From Actinomycetales bacterium (GTDB lineage Bacteria > Actinomycetota > Actinomycetes > Actinomycetales > Cellulomonadaceae), in assembly GCA_020444245.1 (NCBI GenBank), contig JAHLLI010000002.1:186001-250000 (forward strand): a stretch of 64,000 nt of DNA. Reading direction: 5' to 3'. The notes under the pieces are model-generated. The model saw only the letters and a list, made by a program, of their open reading frames with translations, was not told the origin of the DNA and ran no database searches. This document shows, in pieces, positions 6,716-42,119 of this stretch. Position numbers and translations under genes: made by a program. How positions within the stretch are numbered: the first letter of the stretch is position 1; every line of letters starts with the position of its first letter.

Positions 6716-6754
6716 GTGCTGAGACAGAACAATCGGCGAGAGGCAGGCCCGCGG

Positions 6755-8134
6755 GTGTTCATGGCGACCGAGCCGCCGCGACCCCGGGTGATCCGCGAGC
6801 ACCCGCACGCCGGCTGGCTGGCCGTCGGCACGGTCTGCCTCGGCGCCTTCATGGGCCAGCTGGACGCGAGCATCGTCACCCTCACCTTCCCCGCCCTCCA
6901 GCAGGAGTTCGGTGCGCCGCTCGCCGCCGTCTCGTGGGTCTCGCTGGCCTACCTGCTCACCCTCGTCGGCCTGGTCGCCGCGGTGGGCCGGGTGGCCGAC
7001 GCCGCGGGCCGCAAGCTCGTGTACCTGTACGGGTTCGTGGTGTTCTCGGCAGCGTCGGCCGCGTGCGCCCTGGCGCCCGGGCTCGGAGCGCTGGTCGGGT
7101 TCCGCGTGCTCCAGGCCGTCGGCGCCGCGATGCTCCAGGCCAACAGCGTCGCCCTGGTGGTCACCAGCGTCCCGCGGCGGTCCATGCGCGCCGCGCTGGG
7201 CGTGCAGGCCGCGGCTCAGGCCCTCGGGCTGGCGCTCGGCCCGGCGCTCGGCGGCGTGCTGGTGGCCACCGCCGGGTGGCGCTGGGTGTTCTGGGTCAAC
7301 GTGCCGGTGGGCGTGGTCGCGGTCGCCGCGGGGTGGTTCCTGCTGCCGCGGACCCGCGAGCGCACCCGGATCGGCTCGTTCGACACCCCGGGGCTCGTGC
7401 TGCTCGGTGGCTCGACCGCGGCCCTGCTCCTCGGGCTCTCCGGCCTGGCCGGCCTGGCGATGCCGCTGTGGGCGGCGCTGGGGCTGGTCGCCGCCTCGGG
7501 CGTGGGGCTCGTGGCGTTCGTGGGGCGCGAGCGGCGGGCACCGAGCCCGCTGGTGGATCTCACGGTGCTGCGGCCCCGGGCGGTGTCCGTGGGTCTGGTC
7601 GGGGCGCTGAGCGCCTACCTCGTGCTGTTCGCCCCGCTGGCCCTGTTCCCCCAGGTGCTCGGCGCCCACGGGCGGTCCGGCCTGATCCTCACCGCGCTGC
7701 CCGTCGGGTTCGCGGTCGCGGCGCTGCTCGCCGAGCGGCTGCTGCCCCGGCGGTGGGGTGCGCAGGCGCGGGGCGTGCTCGGCGCCGGCGCAGGGGTGGT
7801 CGCCGCCGTCGCCCTGGCCGCGCGACCGGACGACGCGGTCTGGGCGATCGCGTGGCTGGCCCTGCTGGGTCTCGGTGTCGGCGTGTTCATCCCGGCGAAC
7901 AACTCCGCGATCATGGGAGCGATCCCGGTCGGGGTCTCGGCGACCGGCGGTGGCCTGGTGAACATGGCGCGCGGCCTGGGCACCGCACTCGGTGTCACCC
8001 TGGTCGCGTTGTCGCTGCACCTGGGCGGGCCCGACGTGGTGGCGGGCGCACGGATCGCGCTGGTCGCCCTCGCGGTGGTGGGCGGGGTGTCGGCGCTCAC
8101 TGCGCGCGTCGGAAGGCCGGAGGCGGCGCGATGA
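6755..8134 (+). CDS. MFS drug/solute exporter (DHA2/EmrB-like, 14 TM)
   Basis: About 459 residues with roughly 14 hydrophobic segments, typical of the proton-antiport DHA2 multidrug family. The start of helix 1 carries GAFMGQLDASIVTLTFPAL, the family's motif D1-like segment. GRVADAAGRKLVY is the conserved loop 2-3 motif A, and LGPALGGVL resembles antiporter motif C. The start is either GTG at 6755 (11 nt after GAGAGG) or ATG at 6761; both lie downstream of the -10. The stop overlaps the marR-type start (ATGA), so exporter and regulator are translationally coupled. The transported compound is unknown; an aromatic or antibiotic inducer sensed by the MarR partner is plausible. Confidence 0.88.
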   Translation: MFMATEPPRPRVIREHPHAGWLAVGTVCLGAFMGQLDASIVTLTFPALQQEFGAPLAAVSWVSLAYLLTLVGLVAAVGRVADAAGRKLVYLYGFVVFSAASAACALAPGLGALVGFRVLQAVGAAMLQANSVALVVTSVPRRSMRAALGVQAAAQALGLALGPALGGVLVATAGWRWVFWVNVPVGVVAVAAGWFLLPRTRERTRIGSFDTPGLVLLGGSTAALLLGLSGLAGLAMPLWAALGLVAASGVGLVAFVGRERRAPSPLVDLTVLRPRAVSVGLVGALSAYLVLFAPLALFPQVLGAHGRSGLILTALPVGFAVAALLAERLLPRRWGAQARGVLGAGAGVVAAVALAARPDDAVWAIAWLALLGLGVGVFIPANNSAIMGAIPVGVSATGGGLVNMARGLGTALGVTLVALSLHLGGPDVVAGARIALVALAVVGGVSALTARVGRPEAAR

Positions 8135-8599: not shown

Positions 8600-9034
8600 T
8601 CAGCCCGCGCCGGCCAGCAGCGCGAGCAGCCAGATCCCGTAGCCCAGGGTCACCACGCCCAGCACCGAGACGGCCACGGTCACCCGCCGTCGCCCCACCG
8701 CGCCCAGCCCCAGGTCGAAGGCGATCGCGCGCACGCCGAGCATCGCGTGCCAGGTCACCACGACCAGGAAGAGTGCCTCGATCACCAGCATCAGCGGGCT
8801 GGCCAGGTAGGCGATCACCGCGTCGTAGTCCCGTAGGCCGGCGGGGGCGTCCACCACGAAGTGCTGCGCCACGAGGTGCACCACCACGAGCACGCCCAGC
8901 GCGCCCCCGGTGACCACCTGTGCGATCCAGCCCCAGCTGCCGCCGGACGCCCGCGCGGGGGCCCCGACCCGTCGCTCCTCAGGTGCGCGCCCGTCGAGCG
9001 CCCCACCGGTGCGGTCTCGAACGTCCACGCTCAT
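8600..9034 (-). CDS. SdhD-type cytochrome b membrane anchor
   Basis: A 144-residue protein with three hydrophobic helices after a hydrophilic N-terminus of about 30 residues. Histidines in VVHLVAQHF and TWHAMLGVRAI match the haem b and quinone-site positions of succinate dehydrogenase/fumarate reductase small anchors. It starts 3 bp after the SdhC-type gene ends and is the last gene of the three-gene minus-strand operon. Because the flavoprotein of this operon is GlpA-like, the complex is probably not an ordinary succinate dehydrogenase, so I do not assign the symbol sdhD. The 3' end is only 4 bp from the convergent marR-type gene. Confidence 0.8.
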   Translation of the reverse strand: MSVDVRDRTGGALDGRAPEERRVGAPARASGGSWGWIAQVVTGGALGVLVVVHLVAQHFVVDAPAGLRDYDAVIAYLASPLMLVIEALFLVVVTWHAMLGVRAIAFDLGLGAVGRRRVTVAVSVLGVVTLGYGIWLLALLAGAG

Positions 9035-9037
9035 CGC

Positions 9038-9436
9038 TCAGCCCTCCGCCAGCAGCGCCACGGCCGCCACCACGAGCGCCACGACGCTGACCACGACCAC
9101 GCCGACCAGCAGCGCGCGCTGGCGGCGCACCGCCACGCCGGAACCGACCAGGCCCACCCGCACGCCGTTCGCCGCGTGCCAGACCACCGCGGCGAACAGC
9201 ACCAGGTCCACCACCAGGAACGCCTTGTGCTGGGCCAGGGTGACGAACGAGTCCCAGCTCTCGGCGCCGCGCGCCAGCAGGGACAGCACCGCCAGGTGCA
9301 GGTAGAGGTAGCCCACCAGGACCAGCGCCGAGACCCGGTTGGCCACGAACGCCCACGTCGGCGTGCCACCTCCGGGATGCGCCAGCCAGCCGCGCAGGCC
9401 GCGGCGTCCGGCCCTCGTGCCGCTCTGGGCGCTCAT
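9038..9436 (-). CDS. SdhC-type cytochrome b membrane anchor
   Basis: A 132-residue, three-helix protein. ANRVSALVLVGYLYLHLAVL corresponds to the first helix and quinone-site region of SdhC/FrdC anchors, and VVWHAANGVRVGL to the haem-histidine helix that precedes a GxR motif. Its ATG overlaps the stop of the upstream GlpA-SdhB fusion (4 bp, ATGA), so synthesis is coupled and a stoichiometric membrane complex is expected. It would carry haem b and form the menaquinone site together with the SdhD-type protein. Confidence 0.8.
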   Translation of the reverse strand: MSAQSGTRAGRRGLRGWLAHPGGGTPTWAFVANRVSALVLVGYLYLHLAVLSLLARGAESWDSFVTLAQHKAFLVVDLVLFAAVVWHAANGVRVGLVGSGVAVRRQRALLVGVVVVSVVALVVAAVALLAEG

Positions 9437-11529
9437 CGGGTCGCCGCCTCCCGGTCGTCGGTCCGGGACCGGCCCGCGCCGTCCCGTCCGCCCCGGTGCC
9501 CGAGCCCCAGGTGCCGCCGGGTCAGGGCGCCGCGAAGCGCCATGATGCCGCCGGCCGGGTCGGCGCCCGTGGGGCACACCTCGCTGCAGGCGAAGCTCAG
9601 GTGGCAGCGCCAGCAGCCCTGGTGGTCGTCGACGCCGTCCAGCACCGAGATCGCGTCCAGCCCACGCGGCTCGGCGACCACCCGCCACGCCGCGCCCAAC
9701 GCGGCCGGTCCCAGGTAGTCCGGGTCGGTCCCGGTGATCGGGCAGGCGGACACGCACAGGCCGCACTCGACGCAGTCCTCCAGGCGCATCGCCCGGTCCT
9801 CGGCGCCGCGCGCGCCGTCGGCGGGCACGTGCTCGCTCGCCCGCACCAGCGGGCGGCCGATCCCGTCGAGGCGGGTGTACAGCTCGGTCATGTCGACCAC
9901 CAGGTCGCTGAGCACCGGCGCGTTCGCGATCGGCTCGACCTTCACGACGCCATCCGGCAGGTCGTCCAGCCCGGTGACGCAGCCGAGCACCTCGGCCCCG
10001 TTGACCCGCAGTCCGCAGGTGCCGCACGAGGAGTGGCAGCAGGAGTGGCGCAGGGTGAGCGTCGGGTCGTCGTGCCAACGCACCGCGCGCAGCGCGTCCA
10101 GCACGGTGGTGCCGGGCTCGACGATCACCTCGTACTCGACGGGGACCGGTTCGGGCCAGCCGGGCTTCCAGCGCGACACCGCCAGTCGGCGGGTGGTCAG
10201 CGGCAGGTTCGAGGTGTCGACGCCGTCGCCTGCCGCGCTCGTCGGCCGCGCGCACGTCCGGGCGGGCTCGCGCCCGGCGGTCCGGCGGGGCGCGGGGGCC
10301 GTCATGTGCGAGGGGGTCGTGCGACGCGCCGCCTCCTGGGCGCCGCGCTCGGCGACGTACGCGGTGTGCGGTGCGAGCACGGTGTCGCGGGTCCGGCACG
10401 GCTCGTCGACGCCGAGCTTGCGGCACACCACGTCGGCGGTGGCCTCGGCCATCGCGCGCAGCGTGGTCGCCTTGCCGCCGGAGATCGTGACGAAGCCCTC
10501 GACGCCGTCGCGCTCCGCGTGGTCGAAGCACTTGAACGTGCGCGACAGCTCGCGTCCGGTCTGGGAGCCGGCGTCGCCGATCAGGGGCCGGACGGCCGAC
10601 CAGGCGGCCCGGATCTCCGCGTCGGCGACCGCCGGGACCAGGCGGGAGCCCTGCTCGATCATGGTGCGCACGTGGTCCGCAGGCAGGTGCAGCTCATCCG
10701 GGTCGTCGACCACCCACGAGCTGGTCCCGATCACCGACAGCTCGCGCTGGGGCAGGACGATGTCGCCGTCGCCGGACGGGTGCAGCCGGTTGATCACCAT
10801 CTCGCAGGGCCGCATGCGAACCGCGACGAGCACGCCGGGCGAGCACCGCACCGGCACCTGGACCCCGGCCATGTCGGCGACCCGCTGGGCCCACGGCCCC
10901 GTCGCGTTGACCACCAGGTCGGCGGCCAGCTCGGACTCCTCGCCGCTCACGTCGTCGCGGACCTGGACCCCGGTGACCGCGCCGTTCTCCCGGCGCAGGC
11001 CGACGACGCTGGTGTACGTCCGGACCACCGCGCCGTTGCGCTGGGCCGAGGCGAAGAACCGCAGCGGCAGCCGCATCGCGTCCATCGTGCCGTCCGGCAC
11101 GCGCACCGCGGCCTTGATCGCCGGTGACAGCCCGGGCGCGACGCGCAGGGCCTCGGCGGGGGAGAGCACGGCCGCCGGGATGTCGCACGCCTCACAGCCC
11201 TCGACGAACCGCGGCAGGTAGTCCATGTCCTCGTCGGTGAGGGCGACGAACAGGCCGTCGTTCAGCTCGAACGAGCCGGGCGCGATCCGGCGCAGGATCC
11301 GGTTCTCGGTGATGCACTCGACGGCGGACTCGGTGTCGGACACCGCGTAGCGACCGCCGCTGTGCAGCAGCCCGTGATGGCGTCCGGTGGTCCCGGACGT
11401 GACCTCGCCGCGCTCCAGGACGGTGACCCGCAACCCCCGCAGGGCGAGGTCGTGGGCCACGGCGCCGCCGGTGCCCCCACCCCCGATCACGATGACGTGC
11501 GGCCTGTCTCCAGGGAGGGCTGTCGGCAC
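9433..11529 (-). CDS. Fusion: GlpA-type FAD glycerol-3-phosphate dehydrogenase + SdhB-type iron-sulfur protein
   Basis: A 698-residue chimera. Residues 1-400 are an FAD-dependent dehydrogenase of the GlpA/GlpD (DAO) family: dinucleotide motif VIVIGGGGTGG, then TSGTTGRHHGLLHSGGRYAV and ENRILRRI, which are typical of the anaerobic glycerol-3-phosphate dehydrogenase GlpA. After a low-complexity linker (about 405-445), the C-terminal half is SdhB/FrdB-like. It has a plant-type 2Fe-2S site CX4CX2CX11C (CCHSSCGTC, near 495-515), a 4Fe-4S site CVECGLCVSACP (near 585) and the 3Fe-4S motif CX2CX5CX3CP (near 640-650). GTG at 11529 is chosen because AGGAGG lies 8 nt upstream and overlaps the earlier GTG at 11538. 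An internal ATG (10305) at the junction has no Shine-Dalgarno. Expected reaction: glycerol 3-phosphate to dihydroxyacetone phosphate, with electrons passed to menaquinone through the downstream anchors. Confidence 0.82.
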   Translation of the reverse strand: MPTALPGDRPHVIVIGGGGTGGAVAHDLALRGLRVTVLERGEVTSGTTGRHHGLLHSGGRYAVSDTESAVECITENRILRRIAPGSFELNDGLFVALTDEDMDYLPRFVEGCEACDIPAAVLSPAEALRVAPGLSPAIKAAVRVPDGTMDAMRLPLRFFASAQRNGAVVRTYTSVVGLRRENGAVTGVQVRDDVSGEESELAADLVVNATGPWAQRVADMAGVQVPVRCSPGVLVAVRMRPCEMVINRLHPSGDGDIVLPQRELSVIGTSSWVVDDPDELHLPADHVRTMIEQGSRLVPAVADAEIRAAWSAVRPLIGDAGSQTGRELSRTFKCFDHAERDGVEGFVTISGGKATTLRAMAEATADVVCRKLGVDEPCRTRDTVLAPHTAYVAERGAQEAARRTTPSHMTAPAPRRTAGREPARTCARPTSAAGDGVDTSNLPLTTRRLAVSRWKPGWPEPVPVEYEVIVEPGTTVLDALRAVRWHDDPTLTLRHSCCHSSCGTCGLRVNGAEVLGCVTGLDDLPDGVVKVEPIANAPVLSDLVVDMTELYTRLDGIGRPLVRASEHVPADGARGAEDRAMRLEDCVECGLCVSACPITGTDPDYLGPAALGAAWRVVAEPRGLDAISVLDGVDDHQGCWRCHLSFACSEVCPTGADPAGGIMALRGALTRRHLGLGHRGGRDGAGRSRTDDREAATR

Positions 11530-11565
11530 TGTCCCCACCTCCTCGATGAGGTGCGCAGCACTATC

Positions 11566-11571
11566 ACGTTA
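11566..11571 (-). promoter_or_regulatory. Candidate -10 element for GlpA-SdhB operon
   Basis: On the minus strand TAACGT fits TANNNT, 37 bp upstream of the chosen GTG, in the only AT-rich patch of the 214-bp divergent region shared with the HNH gene. No clear -35 is visible. Confidence 0.35.
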
Positions 11572-11743
11572 TGCCTGGTGGGAGGGGAGGCGGCAGGGTC
11601 CATCGTCCTTCACCCGCCCGCGCGGCGCTGCCGTTCGAGAGCCGATGACGGCACGACGGGCGCGCCGGTCCCGCGTGCCAGACCCGGTTGTCGACCTCGC
11701 TCCGGTCGCGTGTCGGACCTTGACGGTATCGTACAGGTGTTCG

Positions 11744-13264
11744 ATGTCGGGGGGTGGTCTGGTGACCGTGGTCGCTGCGGGGCCGAGCGCGCCCTGGGCG
11801 TGGAGCGAGCGCCATCCGGTCGCCGCGGAGCTGGAGGCTCGGAGCGCGTCGGTCGGTCTCGTGTCCCGGCTTGTCGAGCTGGATCCGGCCGTGGTGGACG
11901 ACGCGGCGCTGGTCGAGGGCATTGCGGGGTGGGAGCGGGCCGGCGCGTGGGTGGCGGGGCGGCAGGCGAGGTGGGTGGCCGAGCTGGGCGCCCGGGCCGT
12001 GCGCGGCTCGGAGGTGGATCGTGTGCCTGACGAGGTCGCGGCCCGGCTCGCGATCACGCGGCGGGCGGCCGAGCACAAGGTCGAGCTCGCGCTGGGGCTG
12101 CAGCGCCACCCGCGGCTGGCCGCCGCGCTGGAGGAGGGGTCGGTCTCGGCGCGCAAGGTCGAGGTGCTGGTGCATGACACCGAGCACCTGCCGCGTGCGC
12201 TGGCCGATGAGGTGATCGCCCGGGTCCTGGAGACGGCGGACGAGCGCACCGTCCCGCAGCTGCGCGCCGACGTCCGCGCGACCGAGCTCGCGCTCGACGC
12301 CGAGGCCGCGGCGGCCCGGCACGCGGTCGCGCGCCGGGAGCGCTGCGTGCGGATGACGCCCGCGCCGGATGCGATGGCGTGGATCCGTGCCCTGCTGCCC
12401 GCTGCCGACGCCGCTGCGGTGATGACGGCTCTCGACGGTGCCGCTGCGGCGCGCGAGCCGGGCGAGGAGCGGACCGCCGACCAGCGTCGGGCCGACGCCT
12501 TGACCGCGATGGCGCGACGGGTGCTCGACTCCGGGCTCGGTCCCGACGGTGTGCCGCTGCCGGTACGCCAGCACCGGCGGCCCCACCTGCTCCTCACGGT
12601 CGCCGGTGAGTGCGGCGGCGCGGGGTCCGGGCGTGGGAGTGCCGGCGTGGGCGCGGCGCGCGCCGCCGTCACCGCCGGGGATGCCTGCGTGGGTGCGGTG
12701 GGCGCCTGCGTGGGTGCGGGGGACGCCTGCGTGGGTGCGGGGCCTGCCGCGCAGGTCGCACACCTGGCCGGGTACGGGCCGGTGCCGCTGGCGGCCGTCG
12801 CGCACCTGCTCGACGAGGCGACACGGGAGCTCGTGCGGGTCGACGAGGACGGTGTGGCGGTCGTCGACGTCGCCGGGACGGACGGGTACCGGCCCTGCGC
12901 CGAGCTCGCCCGGGCGATCGTCGACCGGGACCGGACCTGCCGGTTCCCCGGGTGCCGGGTCCAGGCCGCGCGCTGCGACATCGACCACGTGGAGCCGTTC
13001 GACCCGGACCGGCCCGCGCGCTGGCAGACCGTCGAGCAGAACCTCCAGGCGCTGTGCCGCCACCATCACCGACTCAAGACACACGGCGGCTGGTACGTCA
13101 GCCGGGACCCGATCAGCGGGGCCACCCTGTGGCGCTCACCGACCGGACGCGTCTACATCGTCAGCCTCGAACCGGTGCTGCCCGCGACCCTGCGGGGCCC
13201 AAGGGACCCGCGGGACCCACAGCACCCGCAGGACCCGCCGGACCCACGGGCGCGGACCGGCTAG
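11744..13264 (+). CDS. DUF222 / HNH endonuclease (13E12 repeat-like)
   Basis: A 506-residue protein of the DUF222-HNH family, known in mycobacteria as the 13E12 repeat family. The N-terminal helical DUF222 region spans about 20-300 (ARLAITRRAAEHKVELAL, LEEGSVSARKVEVL). A Gly/Ala/Val segment with three near-identical seven-residue repeats (about 310-335) precedes the HNH domain near 385-450: paired cysteines CRFPGC, the metal-binding CDIDHVEPF, an asparagine in the EQNLQALC helix and CRHHHRLKTH. Active-site residues are intact, so nuclease activity is possible. The biological role of this multicopy family is unresolved. The extreme C-terminus is a Pro/Asp/Arg repeat tail (RDPRDPQHPQDPPDP). The ATG follows a TATCGT hexamer by 11 bp, suggesting a very short leader; a GTG at 11762 is the alternative. 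Confidence 0.82.
   Translation: MSGGGLVTVVAAGPSAPWAWSERHPVAAELEARSASVGLVSRLVELDPAVVDDAALVEGIAGWERAGAWVAGRQARWVAELGARAVRGSEVDRVPDEVAARLAITRRAAEHKVELALGLQRHPRLAAALEEGSVSARKVEVLVHDTEHLPRALADEVIARVLETADERTVPQLRADVRATELALDAEAAAARHAVARRERCVRMTPAPDAMAWIRALLPAADAAAVMTALDGAAAAREPGEERTADQRRADALTAMARRVLDSGLGPDGVPLPVRQHRRPHLLLTVAGECGGAGSGRGSAGVGAARAAVTAGDACVGAVGACVGAGDACVGAGPAAQVAHLAGYGPVPLAAVAHLLDEATRELVRVDEDGVAVVDVAGTDGYRPCAELARAIVDRDRTCRFPGCRVQAARCDIDHVEPFDPDRPARWQTVEQNLQALCRHHHRLKTHGGWYVSRDPISGATLWRSPTGRVYIVSLEPVLPATLRGPRDPRDPQHPQDPPDPRARTG
12683..12745 (+). repeat. Three tandem 21-bp repeats inside HNH gene
   Basis: The 16-bp core GCCTGCGTGGGTGCGG recurs at 12683, 12704 and 12725. The 21-bp period keeps the frame and encodes repeats of ACVGAG-type heptads between the DUF222 and HNH parts. 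Copy number may vary between strains by slippage. Confidence 0.8.
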
Positions 13265-40323: not shown

Positions 40324-42119
40324 CCACCGACGCCGAACGGGCGAGCGGCGTGCCGGAGGACGGCTACCCGTCCGCCCAGGCTGCGAGGACGTTGCTCCAG
40401 GCGCTGGCCGACCTCGGCGTGCGCGACGTGGTGCTCGCGCCCGGCTCGCGCAGCGCACCGCTCGCCTACGCCGCCGCCGAGGCCGCCCTGCCAGGCGACG
40501 ACCCGGACCGCGACCCCGCCGCCCCTGCGCTGACCGTGCACGTGCGGGTCGACGAGCGGGTCGCGGGCTTCCTGGCCCTCGGCCTGGCCCGCGCCGCCAA
40601 GGCCCGCAAGGAGCCGCGCCCGGTCGCGGTCGTCACCACCTCGGGGACGGCGCCCGCGCACCTGCTGGCGGCGGCCCTGGAGGCCCGGCACTCGGGCCTG
40701 CCGCTGCTCCTGCTCACCGCCGACCGCCCGCACGAGCTGCGCGGCACCGGCGCCAACCAGACCACCGAGCAGGTCGGGCTGCTCGCTCCCGCCGTGCGGC
40801 TCTCGGTGGACGTGCCTGCCCCGGTGGGCCTGCCGGACGAGCTGCGTGACCTGCGCAACCTCGCGGCGCGAGTGGTGGCGGTGGCGCTCGGCACCCGTGA
40901 CCACACGCCAGGGCCGGTGCACCTCAACCTGGCCTACCGCGAGCCGCTGGTGCCGGGCGGGGCGTGGCCCGAGCGGTCCGACGACGGGTTGACCCGGGTG
41001 TTCGCGCACCCCGGCACGCCGGCCGGGATCGAGCTCGCGAGGTACTCGGACGTCGCCGTGCCGGTGGCACCTGCCGACGGGGTGCGCACCGTGGTGGTCG
41101 CCGGGGACGACGCCGGCCCCGAGGCCTCCGTCGTGGCGCACGCCAACGAGTGGCCGCTGCTGGCCGAGCCGTCGTCGGGCGCGGGTGGCGGCCCGAACAC
41201 GATCCCCGCGTACCGCCTGCTGCTGGACTCGCCGGCCCTCGGCGGTGCGGTGCAGCGAGTCGTGGTGATGGGCCGGCCGACCCTGTCCCGCCCGGTGCAG
41301 GCGCTGCTCGCTCGGCCGGACGTCGAGGTCCTGGTGATCGCCGAGCAGGGCCGTGACTGGCCGGACGCCGCCCGGCGGGCCGACCAGGTGTACCCCGGCG
41401 TGCCGGGGCAGCTGATGCGCGGCAACCTCGGCCGGGGGATGGGCTGGGTGGAGCGCTGGCGCAGGGCCGGCGAGGTCGCGGCCCAGGCGGTCGCGGAGGT
41501 GCTGGCCGAGGAGCGGCTCGGCGCGGCGTCGGGCCCGTTGCTCGCCGCGCTGGTCGCCTCGAGCCTGACCCCTGCCGACGTGCTCGTGGTCGCCTCGTCC
41601 AGCCCGGTGCGCGACCTCGACCTGGTGGCGCGTTGGGAGGACCCGCCGCTCGTGGTGGCCAACCGCGGCCTGGCCGGCATCGACGGCACGCTGTCCACGG
41701 CGGCGGGGCTCGCGCTCGGGCTGGGACGGCCGGTGCACGCGTACGTCGGCGACCTCGCGTTCCTGCACGACGCGGGCGCCCTGCTGGTGGGCCCCGGCGA
41801 AGAGGTGCCGGATCTTCGGGTGATCGTCGCCCATGACGGTGGTGGCTCGATCTTCGCGACCCTGGAGCACGGCGCCCCGGAGCTCGCCCGGCACGCCGAG
41901 CGGGTGATGGCCACCCCGCACCGCGCGGACCTCGGGGCGCTGTGCGCCGGGTACGGCGTGGGTTACCGGCGGATCGACGTCGATCGTCTGCCGCACGTGA
42001 TGGCCCAACCGGTCCAGGGCACCGAGGTGGTCGACGTCCCGGTGGACCGGGAGGGCAGGCGTGCGTTGACCGCACGGCTGGCGCAGGTCGTGACCGCGGC
42101 GGTGGCGGCGCTGGACTGA
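40320..42119 (+). CDS. menD: SEPHCHC synthase (MenD)
   Basis: A 599-residue thiamine-diphosphate enzyme that joins isochorismate and 2-oxoglutarate. N-terminal VVLAPGSRSAPLAYAAAE and VHVRVDERVAGFLALGLARAA (catalytic Glu), VVTTSGTAPAHLLAA and TADRPHELRGTGANQTTEQ are MenD hallmarks. The C-terminal ThDP site is GDLAFLHDAGALL and VIVAHDGGGSIF. Translation starts at the GTG that overlaps the menC stop. Confidence 0.95.
   Translation: MTTDAERASGVPEDGYPSAQAARTLLQALADLGVRDVVLAPGSRSAPLAYAAAEAALPGDDPDRDPAAPALTVHVRVDERVAGFLALGLARAAKARKEPRPVAVVTTSGTAPAHLLAAALEARHSGLPLLLLTADRPHELRGTGANQTTEQVGLLAPAVRLSVDVPAPVGLPDELRDLRNLAARVVAVALGTRDHTPGPVHLNLAYREPLVPGGAWPERSDDGLTRVFAHPGTPAGIELARYSDVAVPVAPADGVRTVVVAGDDAGPEASVVAHANEWPLLAEPSSGAGGGPNTIPAYRLLLDSPALGGAVQRVVVMGRPTLSRPVQALLARPDVEVLVIAEQGRDWPDAARRADQVYPGVPGQLMRGNLGRGMGWVERWRRAGEVAAQAVAEVLAEERLGAASGPLLAALVASSLTPADVLVVASSSPVRDLDLVARWEDPPLVVANRGLAGIDGTLSTAAGLALGLGRPVHAYVGDLAFLHDAGALLVGPGEEVPDLRVIVAHDGGGSIFATLEHGAPELARHAERVMATPHRADLGALCAGYGVGYRRIDVDRLPHVMAQPVQGTEVVDVPVDREGRRALTARLAQVVTAAVAALD

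Follow-up and report, generated by a model that had tools for sequence, protein, structure and literature searches.

What electron donor would a complex II serve if its flavoprotein were exchanged for one of another family? This question is raised by a locus of an Actinomycetales bacterium (Cellulomonadaceae; GenBank assembly GCA_020444245.1, contig JAHLLI010000002.1, positions 186,001 to 250,000, a stretch of 64,000 nucleotides hereafter called the window), where a single gene joins a flavin adenine dinucleotide (FAD) dehydrogenase of the GlpA type to an iron-sulfur protein of the SdhB type and is followed by genes for two membrane anchors of the SdhC and SdhD types. A first-pass annotation had proposed that the flavoprotein was swapped, with glycerol 3-phosphate (G3P) replacing succinate as donor and haem b/menaquinone as the exit, an interpretation that is supported by the substrate-site residues, the linkage to glpK, GlpB scores below cut-off, the iron-sulfur and haem ligands, and the menD gene of the host. 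We consider that the locus most probably encodes a membrane-bound diheme sn-glycerol-3-phosphate:menaquinone oxidoreductase on a complex-II chassis, with a probability of about 0.85. The assembly of the complex, its electron path, its activity on G3P and menaquinone as its acceptor are what we infer from gene order, domain identity, residue conservation, genomic linkage and phylogeny.

The fused gene (9433..11538, minus strand) is one uninterrupted frame, as first annotated; its length is 701 codons counted from the furthest GTG, and the 698 codons given initially correspond to a start at 11529. Its first 393 residues (10360..11538, minus strand) form a GlpA domain of DAO fold that lacks, by alignment, the C-terminal iron-sulfur domain of classical GlpA. 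The best NCBIfam match is GlpA (TIGR03377), at 463 bits over residues 14-403 and model positions 1-390 of 530 (464 bits when the genome was searched); the score falls short of the full-length equivalog cut-off of 552.8 bits because the C-terminal part is missing. A weakly conserved linker of 58 residues (10186..10359, minus strand), rich in Ala, Arg, Thr and Pro and with a guanine-plus-cytosine (GC) content of 0.72/0.76/0.95 at the three codon positions, leads to the SdhB domain (9514..10185, minus strand). SdhB families match residues 449-675; Fer2_3 matches at 1.2e-23, and dhsB scores 163 bits at residues 454-668, over a cut-off of 88. The Pfam domains of the protein are DAO, Fer2_3 and Fer4; there is no Pfam match to Succ_DH_flav_C, and the best match of the flavoprotein is DAO, not the FAD_binding_2 plus Succ_DH_flav_C pair that marks an SdhA flavoprotein. 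The stop codon of the fused gene and the start codon of the sdhC-type gene (9038..9436, minus strand, 132 aa) overlap; by coordinates the sdhD-type gene (8600..9034, minus strand, 144 aa) begins 3 nt after sdhC, and each anchor matches Sdh_cyt above cut-off. The frame, the profile matches and the complete motifs thus agree with the initial description of a GlpA-type and an SdhB-type protein in one frame, with three iron-sulfur motifs and two coupled anchors. Both folds are confirmed by a predicted structure of the 701-residue protein (mean predicted local distance difference test score 77), computed from an alignment of 47 rows comprising the window and the loci of a genome-contig scan: in a fold search, one half of the model resembles GlpD and alpha-glycerophosphate oxidase, and the other E. 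coli FrdB (1kf6_B, template-modelling score by target 0.82).

Could the fusion be an artefact? Eight distinct fused loci are known, public records included: the window and seven homologous loci, of which six are complete and the seventh runs into a contig end with its frame still open. All seven complete loci (7/7) are fused in one frame, and a sequencing error, which the first-pass annotation had named as a possible refutation, is ruled out as the source; given seven further homologous loci with an in-frame join or an open frame, chance or error is very unlikely. Among 61 genomes in family group f1, five carry the gene (G000, G001, G008, G030 and G052, the G052 copy being cut by a contig end), two relatives that carry it belong to the same genus group as the window genome, and one of the eight loci comes from a metagenome-assembled genome (MAG) labelled only Actinomycetes. 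The linkers, taken as the stretch from the conserved GlpA end to the SdhB start, measure 39, 47, 55, 58, 67, 70 and 126 residues in the seven complete loci; that of the truncated gene measures 70. They are always in frame, of low complexity, and high in third-position GC (0.83-0.96). For four of the eight genes, in which the linker holds in-frame ATG or GTG codons, an internal restart might still yield two proteins, although by eye no convincing ribosome site lies near these codons. Fragments of a fused gene split by contig ends were found in MAG BP9.bin99 (L034, L050), whose Proteobacteria label looks wrong, since its contigs bear the fused gene and the genome search places it in the window's family. 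Beside the operon in the window lie a major facilitator superfamily transporter gene (6716-8134, plus strand) and a DUF222 gene (11387-13264, plus strand), neither of which suggests glycerol use.

The co-occurrence of GlpA and SdhB with SdhC/D across genomes, put forward at the outset as a check, was found fused in one clade and adjacent elsewhere, and the usual form of the system is four separate adjacent genes, in Chloroflexota and other Actinomycetota. The genome-contig scan returned 29 loci, 22 of them from Chloroflexota, and in all 20 of the latter whose fetched DNA includes sdhB, it is encoded separately from glpA; in several of these the two genes share one frame by chance and mimic a fusion, but calling of open reading frames (ORFs) gave separate genes. 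We also sampled 298 genomes from the class of one Anaerolineae MAG, 66 of which match its GlpA at 1e-100. The short-GlpA family is present in 52 of the 298 (at least 52% identity), leaving aside G205, also at 52% identity, which has a long glpA followed by glpB and glpC. Among the 51 genomes inspected (all 52 but G400), sdhB lies directly behind glpA in 46, and one contig ends right behind glpA. In the 46 loci glpA and sdhB are never fused (0/46); sdhC comes next in 44 of the 44 with enough downstream DNA, and sdhD was found in 40, the fetched DNA ending within about 1.5 kb in the remaining six. At least seven class-sample genomes are also among the scan loci (eight if G184 is L040, to which its contig number and length point). 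A sample of 396 genomes from the phylum Actinomycetota holds the family in 14 at 55% identity or more, namely the window and 13 others; in 12 of these others sdhB, sdhC and sdhD are separate genes adjoining glpA, and the remaining locus is truncated by a contig end. Moreover, three Chloroflexota loci carry sdhB and sdhC in one frame (L032:4629-5762, L045:7098-8291, L047:7165-8301), and this fusion, like that of glpA and sdhB, unites neighbouring subunits of the complex. In the loci counted we found no SdhA homologue on the same strand and, within the fetched DNA, no homologue of GlpB or GlpC on that strand either, no genome-wide search for GlpC having been made.

Concerning the substrate, the positions equivalent to H50, R54 and Y55 of E. 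coli GlpD are each invariant in the 57 rows that cover them, out of 59 family rows, and those equivalent to R317, R332 and K354 are each invariant in 59 of 59. We take these six residues to be the substrate site of GlpD; a literature search for them found nothing. The same six are present in E. coli GlpA and in the other GlpA groups aligned, and the fused protein has a catalytic FAD domain carrying these presumed GlpD-type site residues. The genomic context of the relatives also points to glycerol: of 42 class-sample loci with sdhB and at least 1.2 kb of upstream DNA, 37 carry a same-strand glpK gene no more than 1.2 kb upstream, and under the same conditions so do 12 of 14 Chloroflexota scan loci and 7 of 11 Actinomycetota loci. 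Genes for dhaK, dhaL and a phosphotransferase system (PTS) EIIA-HPr-EI protein are also found on many unfused loci, and L114 has on one strand, in order, dhaK, dhaL, glpK, glpA, sdhB, sdhC, sdhD, one ORF and the PTS gene. GlpB scored below cut-off in all 24 genomes with the system that were tested, many of them draft MAGs; the single GlpABC genome included in that search scored above it.

How might the electrons leave? The three iron-sulfur motifs of the SdhB half are complete, and their 11 cluster cysteines (C500, C505, C508, C520; C589, C592, C595, C599; C645, C651, C655) are invariant in 55-56 family rows, the third position of the 2Fe-2S motif being Cys in this family versus Asp in E. coli SdhB. 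In the anchors, SdhC H47 (55/55 rows) and H87 (54/54) and SdhD H53 (49/49) and H96 (47/47) are invariant, and SdhD H58 is conserved in 48 of 49 rows. For Mycobacterium smegmatis Sdh2 the haem ligands are given as D107/C87 for haem bP and D65/C47 for haem bD (PMC7447783), and in an alignment of window SdhC with the SdhC of that enzyme (6lum_C), H47 and H87 fall on the identically numbered ligands C47 and C87. The SdhD histidines were paired with those of 6lum_D by their place in the helices and not by alignment; phmmer matched window SdhD to 6lum_C only. Four anchor histidines thus correspond to the haem ligands of diheme menaquinone complex II, from which two haems are predicted in SdhC/SdhD; four axial histidines on two anchor subunits are the pattern of type A complex II, and the anchor of the host's ordinary SDH is of the same Sdh2 type. 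As for the acceptor, menD is over cut-off in all seven fused-gene genomes searched. In the window it lies at 40380-41717 (plus strand), with about 29 kb between it and the fused gene, and in two Actinotalea relatives the distance is about 26-29 kb.

We propose that the GlpA half would bind FAD and oxidize G3P to dihydroxyacetone phosphate (DHAP) on the cytoplasmic side, and that electrons would pass from FAD through the [2Fe-2S], [4Fe-4S] and [3Fe-4S] clusters of the SdhB half, then over the two haems of SdhC/SdhD, bP first and bD second, to menaquinone, as in diheme complex II but from another donor. In this way GlpB, GlpC and the C-terminal iron-sulfur domain of classical GlpA would be substituted by the SdhB half, and in the Cellulomonadaceae clade the linker would tether the donor to the relay, the same subunits being separate proteins elsewhere. 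With potentials of about -190 mV for the G3P couple and -74 mV for menaquinone, the transfer from G3P to menaquinone is downhill, unlike that from succinate, and two haems are therefore not required for driving an uphill step. The pairing of a diheme anchor with a downhill step raises the question of whether G3P oxidation consumes, ignores or builds membrane potential; the haems may make the reaction electrogenic.

In a tree of 74 GlpA rows, in which some rows, GlpD and E. coli GlpA among them, were flagged for long branches, the 58 rows of the family form one side of a branch (support 100/98) and join a Chloroflexota GlpA with adjoining glpB and glpC (100/99). The fused genes are one clade of eight rows (100/100) within an Actinomycetota group of 17 rows (100/95), which pairs with two Chloroflexota rows (99/97). 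More than one transfer of the family is likely, since two Actinomycetota loci (L099, L100) sit elsewhere, among Chloroflexota rows. In a tree of 70 SdhB rows, the fused rows are again one clade (seven rows, 100/99), and a branch with 100/100 support splits the family from the 15 canonical SdhB sequences used, namely that of E. coli and 14 taken from the host's family, the deep order inside the SdhB family being poorly resolved. The fusion would be a single late event in the Cellulomonadaceae clade. As the simplest story, we infer for the direction that a short GlpA recruited SdhBCD, perhaps in Chloroflexota, that the system was then transferred to Actinomycetota, and that one fusion followed in Cellulomonadaceae.

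Several observations weigh against a G3P:menaquinone oxidoreductase. None of the eight fused-gene loci, which across genera have only the three-gene cassette in common, has a glpK in the 1.2 kb upstream, and the window host encodes a classical SDH as well as a classical GlpD that has glpK in its vicinity. A solo glpA with no adjoining sdhBCD occurs in 4 of the 51 class-sample genomes inspected; L035, L038 and L039 yielded no sdhD, and two of them (L035, L039) have more than 5 kb of downstream DNA; and menD is over cut-off in 14 of 24 genomes overall, the 10 below it all being on the Chloroflexota side, as judged by the menD route only. The canonical SdhB sequences of our tree are narrowly sampled, and the predicted structure of the fused protein has a predicted template-modelling score (pTM) of 0.62.

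Part of this evidence would fit a flavoprotein that acts on a different small hydroxy or amino compound within the range of the DAO superfamily, the complex being a quinone reductase for that substrate. The superfamily is broad, glycine oxidase, sarcosine oxidase and others turn up in both sequence and fold searches, and the fused loci lack the upstream glpK; however, GlpA is the best family match, the six GlpD site residues do not vary, and most unfused relatives adjoin glpK, with dhaK and dhaL on many such loci, so that we regard this as unlikely. We give slightly less credit to a complex working mainly in reverse, for example in menaquinol-driven DHAP reduction, or serving a redox shuttle instead of glycerol catabolism. 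The host does already have GlpD, and diheme complex II is a quinol:fumarate reductase in some species (PMC7447783). Yet the gene neighbourhood in relatives is catabolic, and the reverse reaction would be uphill. Least probable of all is that no single complex exists, the SdhB half and anchors serving the normal SDH of the host with GlpA as a passenger: that SDH is indeed encoded elsewhere, but it has its own SdhA, SdhB, SdhC and SdhD, the SdhB of the family is a separate clade, and the glpA-sdhB fusion, the sdhB-sdhC fusion and the four-gene linkage recur in two phyla.

The glycerol loci vary in their electron exit. In similar glpK or dhaKL-glpK settings, sdhBCD is found most often, and glpB and glpC in L110, L113, L154 and L155. 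A second clade of short GlpA shows the order glpK-etfB-etfA-glpA (L101, L103, L105, L106), with no SdhB, GlpB or GlpC found; it comprises six loci, L104 showing EtfA only before the contig end and L102 beginning too close. This arrangement suggests a possible G3P:electron-transfer flavoprotein (ETF) oxidoreductase, with electrons handed to ETF. Solo members of the GlpA family, with no sdhBCD or glpK found nearby, occur in L133, L134, L139 and L144; that of L134 adjoins a gene identified by Pfam as a LacI-type regulator, and on visual inspection L139 and L144 resemble each other. An Actinomycetota locus (L107:4569-5747) encodes a short GlpA of 392 aa near a leucyl-tRNA synthetase gene, with no SdhB or ETF found before the contig ends soon after. 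The bacterial GlpA-SdhBCD loci probably represent a widespread and undescribed complex II with its flavoprotein swapped, in which G3P electrons would reach menaquinone via three iron-sulfur clusters and two haems, the glycerol loci offering a modular slot with SdhBCD, GlpBC or EtfBA as exit, and donor and relay being fused in Cellulomonadaceae.

The first-pass annotation knew of no described enzyme with this fusion, and no apparent report of it was found in the open-licence PMC papers searched; the exchange of the flavoprotein on an SdhBCD chassis, for its part, had already been proposed in 2025 from synteny for Thermofilum pendens and related archaea, where glpA is followed by counterparts of sdhB, sdhC and sdhD (PMC11962113). 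Nor did those papers, which exclude subscription articles and preprints, include any other apparent report of the bacterial form. New here are the bacterial family, the GlpA-SdhB fusion and the glycerol loci with varying electron exit. The same source states that canonical bacterial glpA co-occurs consistently with glpB and glpC (PMC11962113), a generalization to which bacterial GlpA-SdhBCD runs counter. Our data suggest that the SdhBCD of complex II can serve a dehydrogenase of another family as an electron-export chassis in bacteria too, and not in Thermofilum alone, and the natural single-chain link between GlpA and SdhB should ease structural access to that interface.

Of the closest known systems, that of Thermofilum has the same order of glpA, sdhB, sdhC and sdhD and is drawn as a membrane G3P dehydrogenase complex (PMC11962113); it is archaeal, whereas the present family is bacterial, spans two phyla, is mostly linked to glpK and is fused in one clade. 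With GlpABC the family shares a homologous catalytic domain (40-44% identity to E. coli GlpA) and presumably the transfer from G3P to quinone, but it has SdhB and haem-type anchors in place of the C-terminal iron-sulfur domain of GlpA, GlpB and GlpC. GlpD and GlpO carry out G3P oxidation on a DAO fold with the same substrate-site residues, at about 22-29% identity to the family and without an SdhBCD partner. Finally, the diheme succinate:menaquinone oxidoreductase of type A, as represented by M. smegmatis Sdh2 (PMC7447783), has the same three cluster motifs in SdhB and the four haem-ligand histidines in SdhC/SdhD, and differs in that the present system has a DAO-family flavoprotein in place of SdhA.

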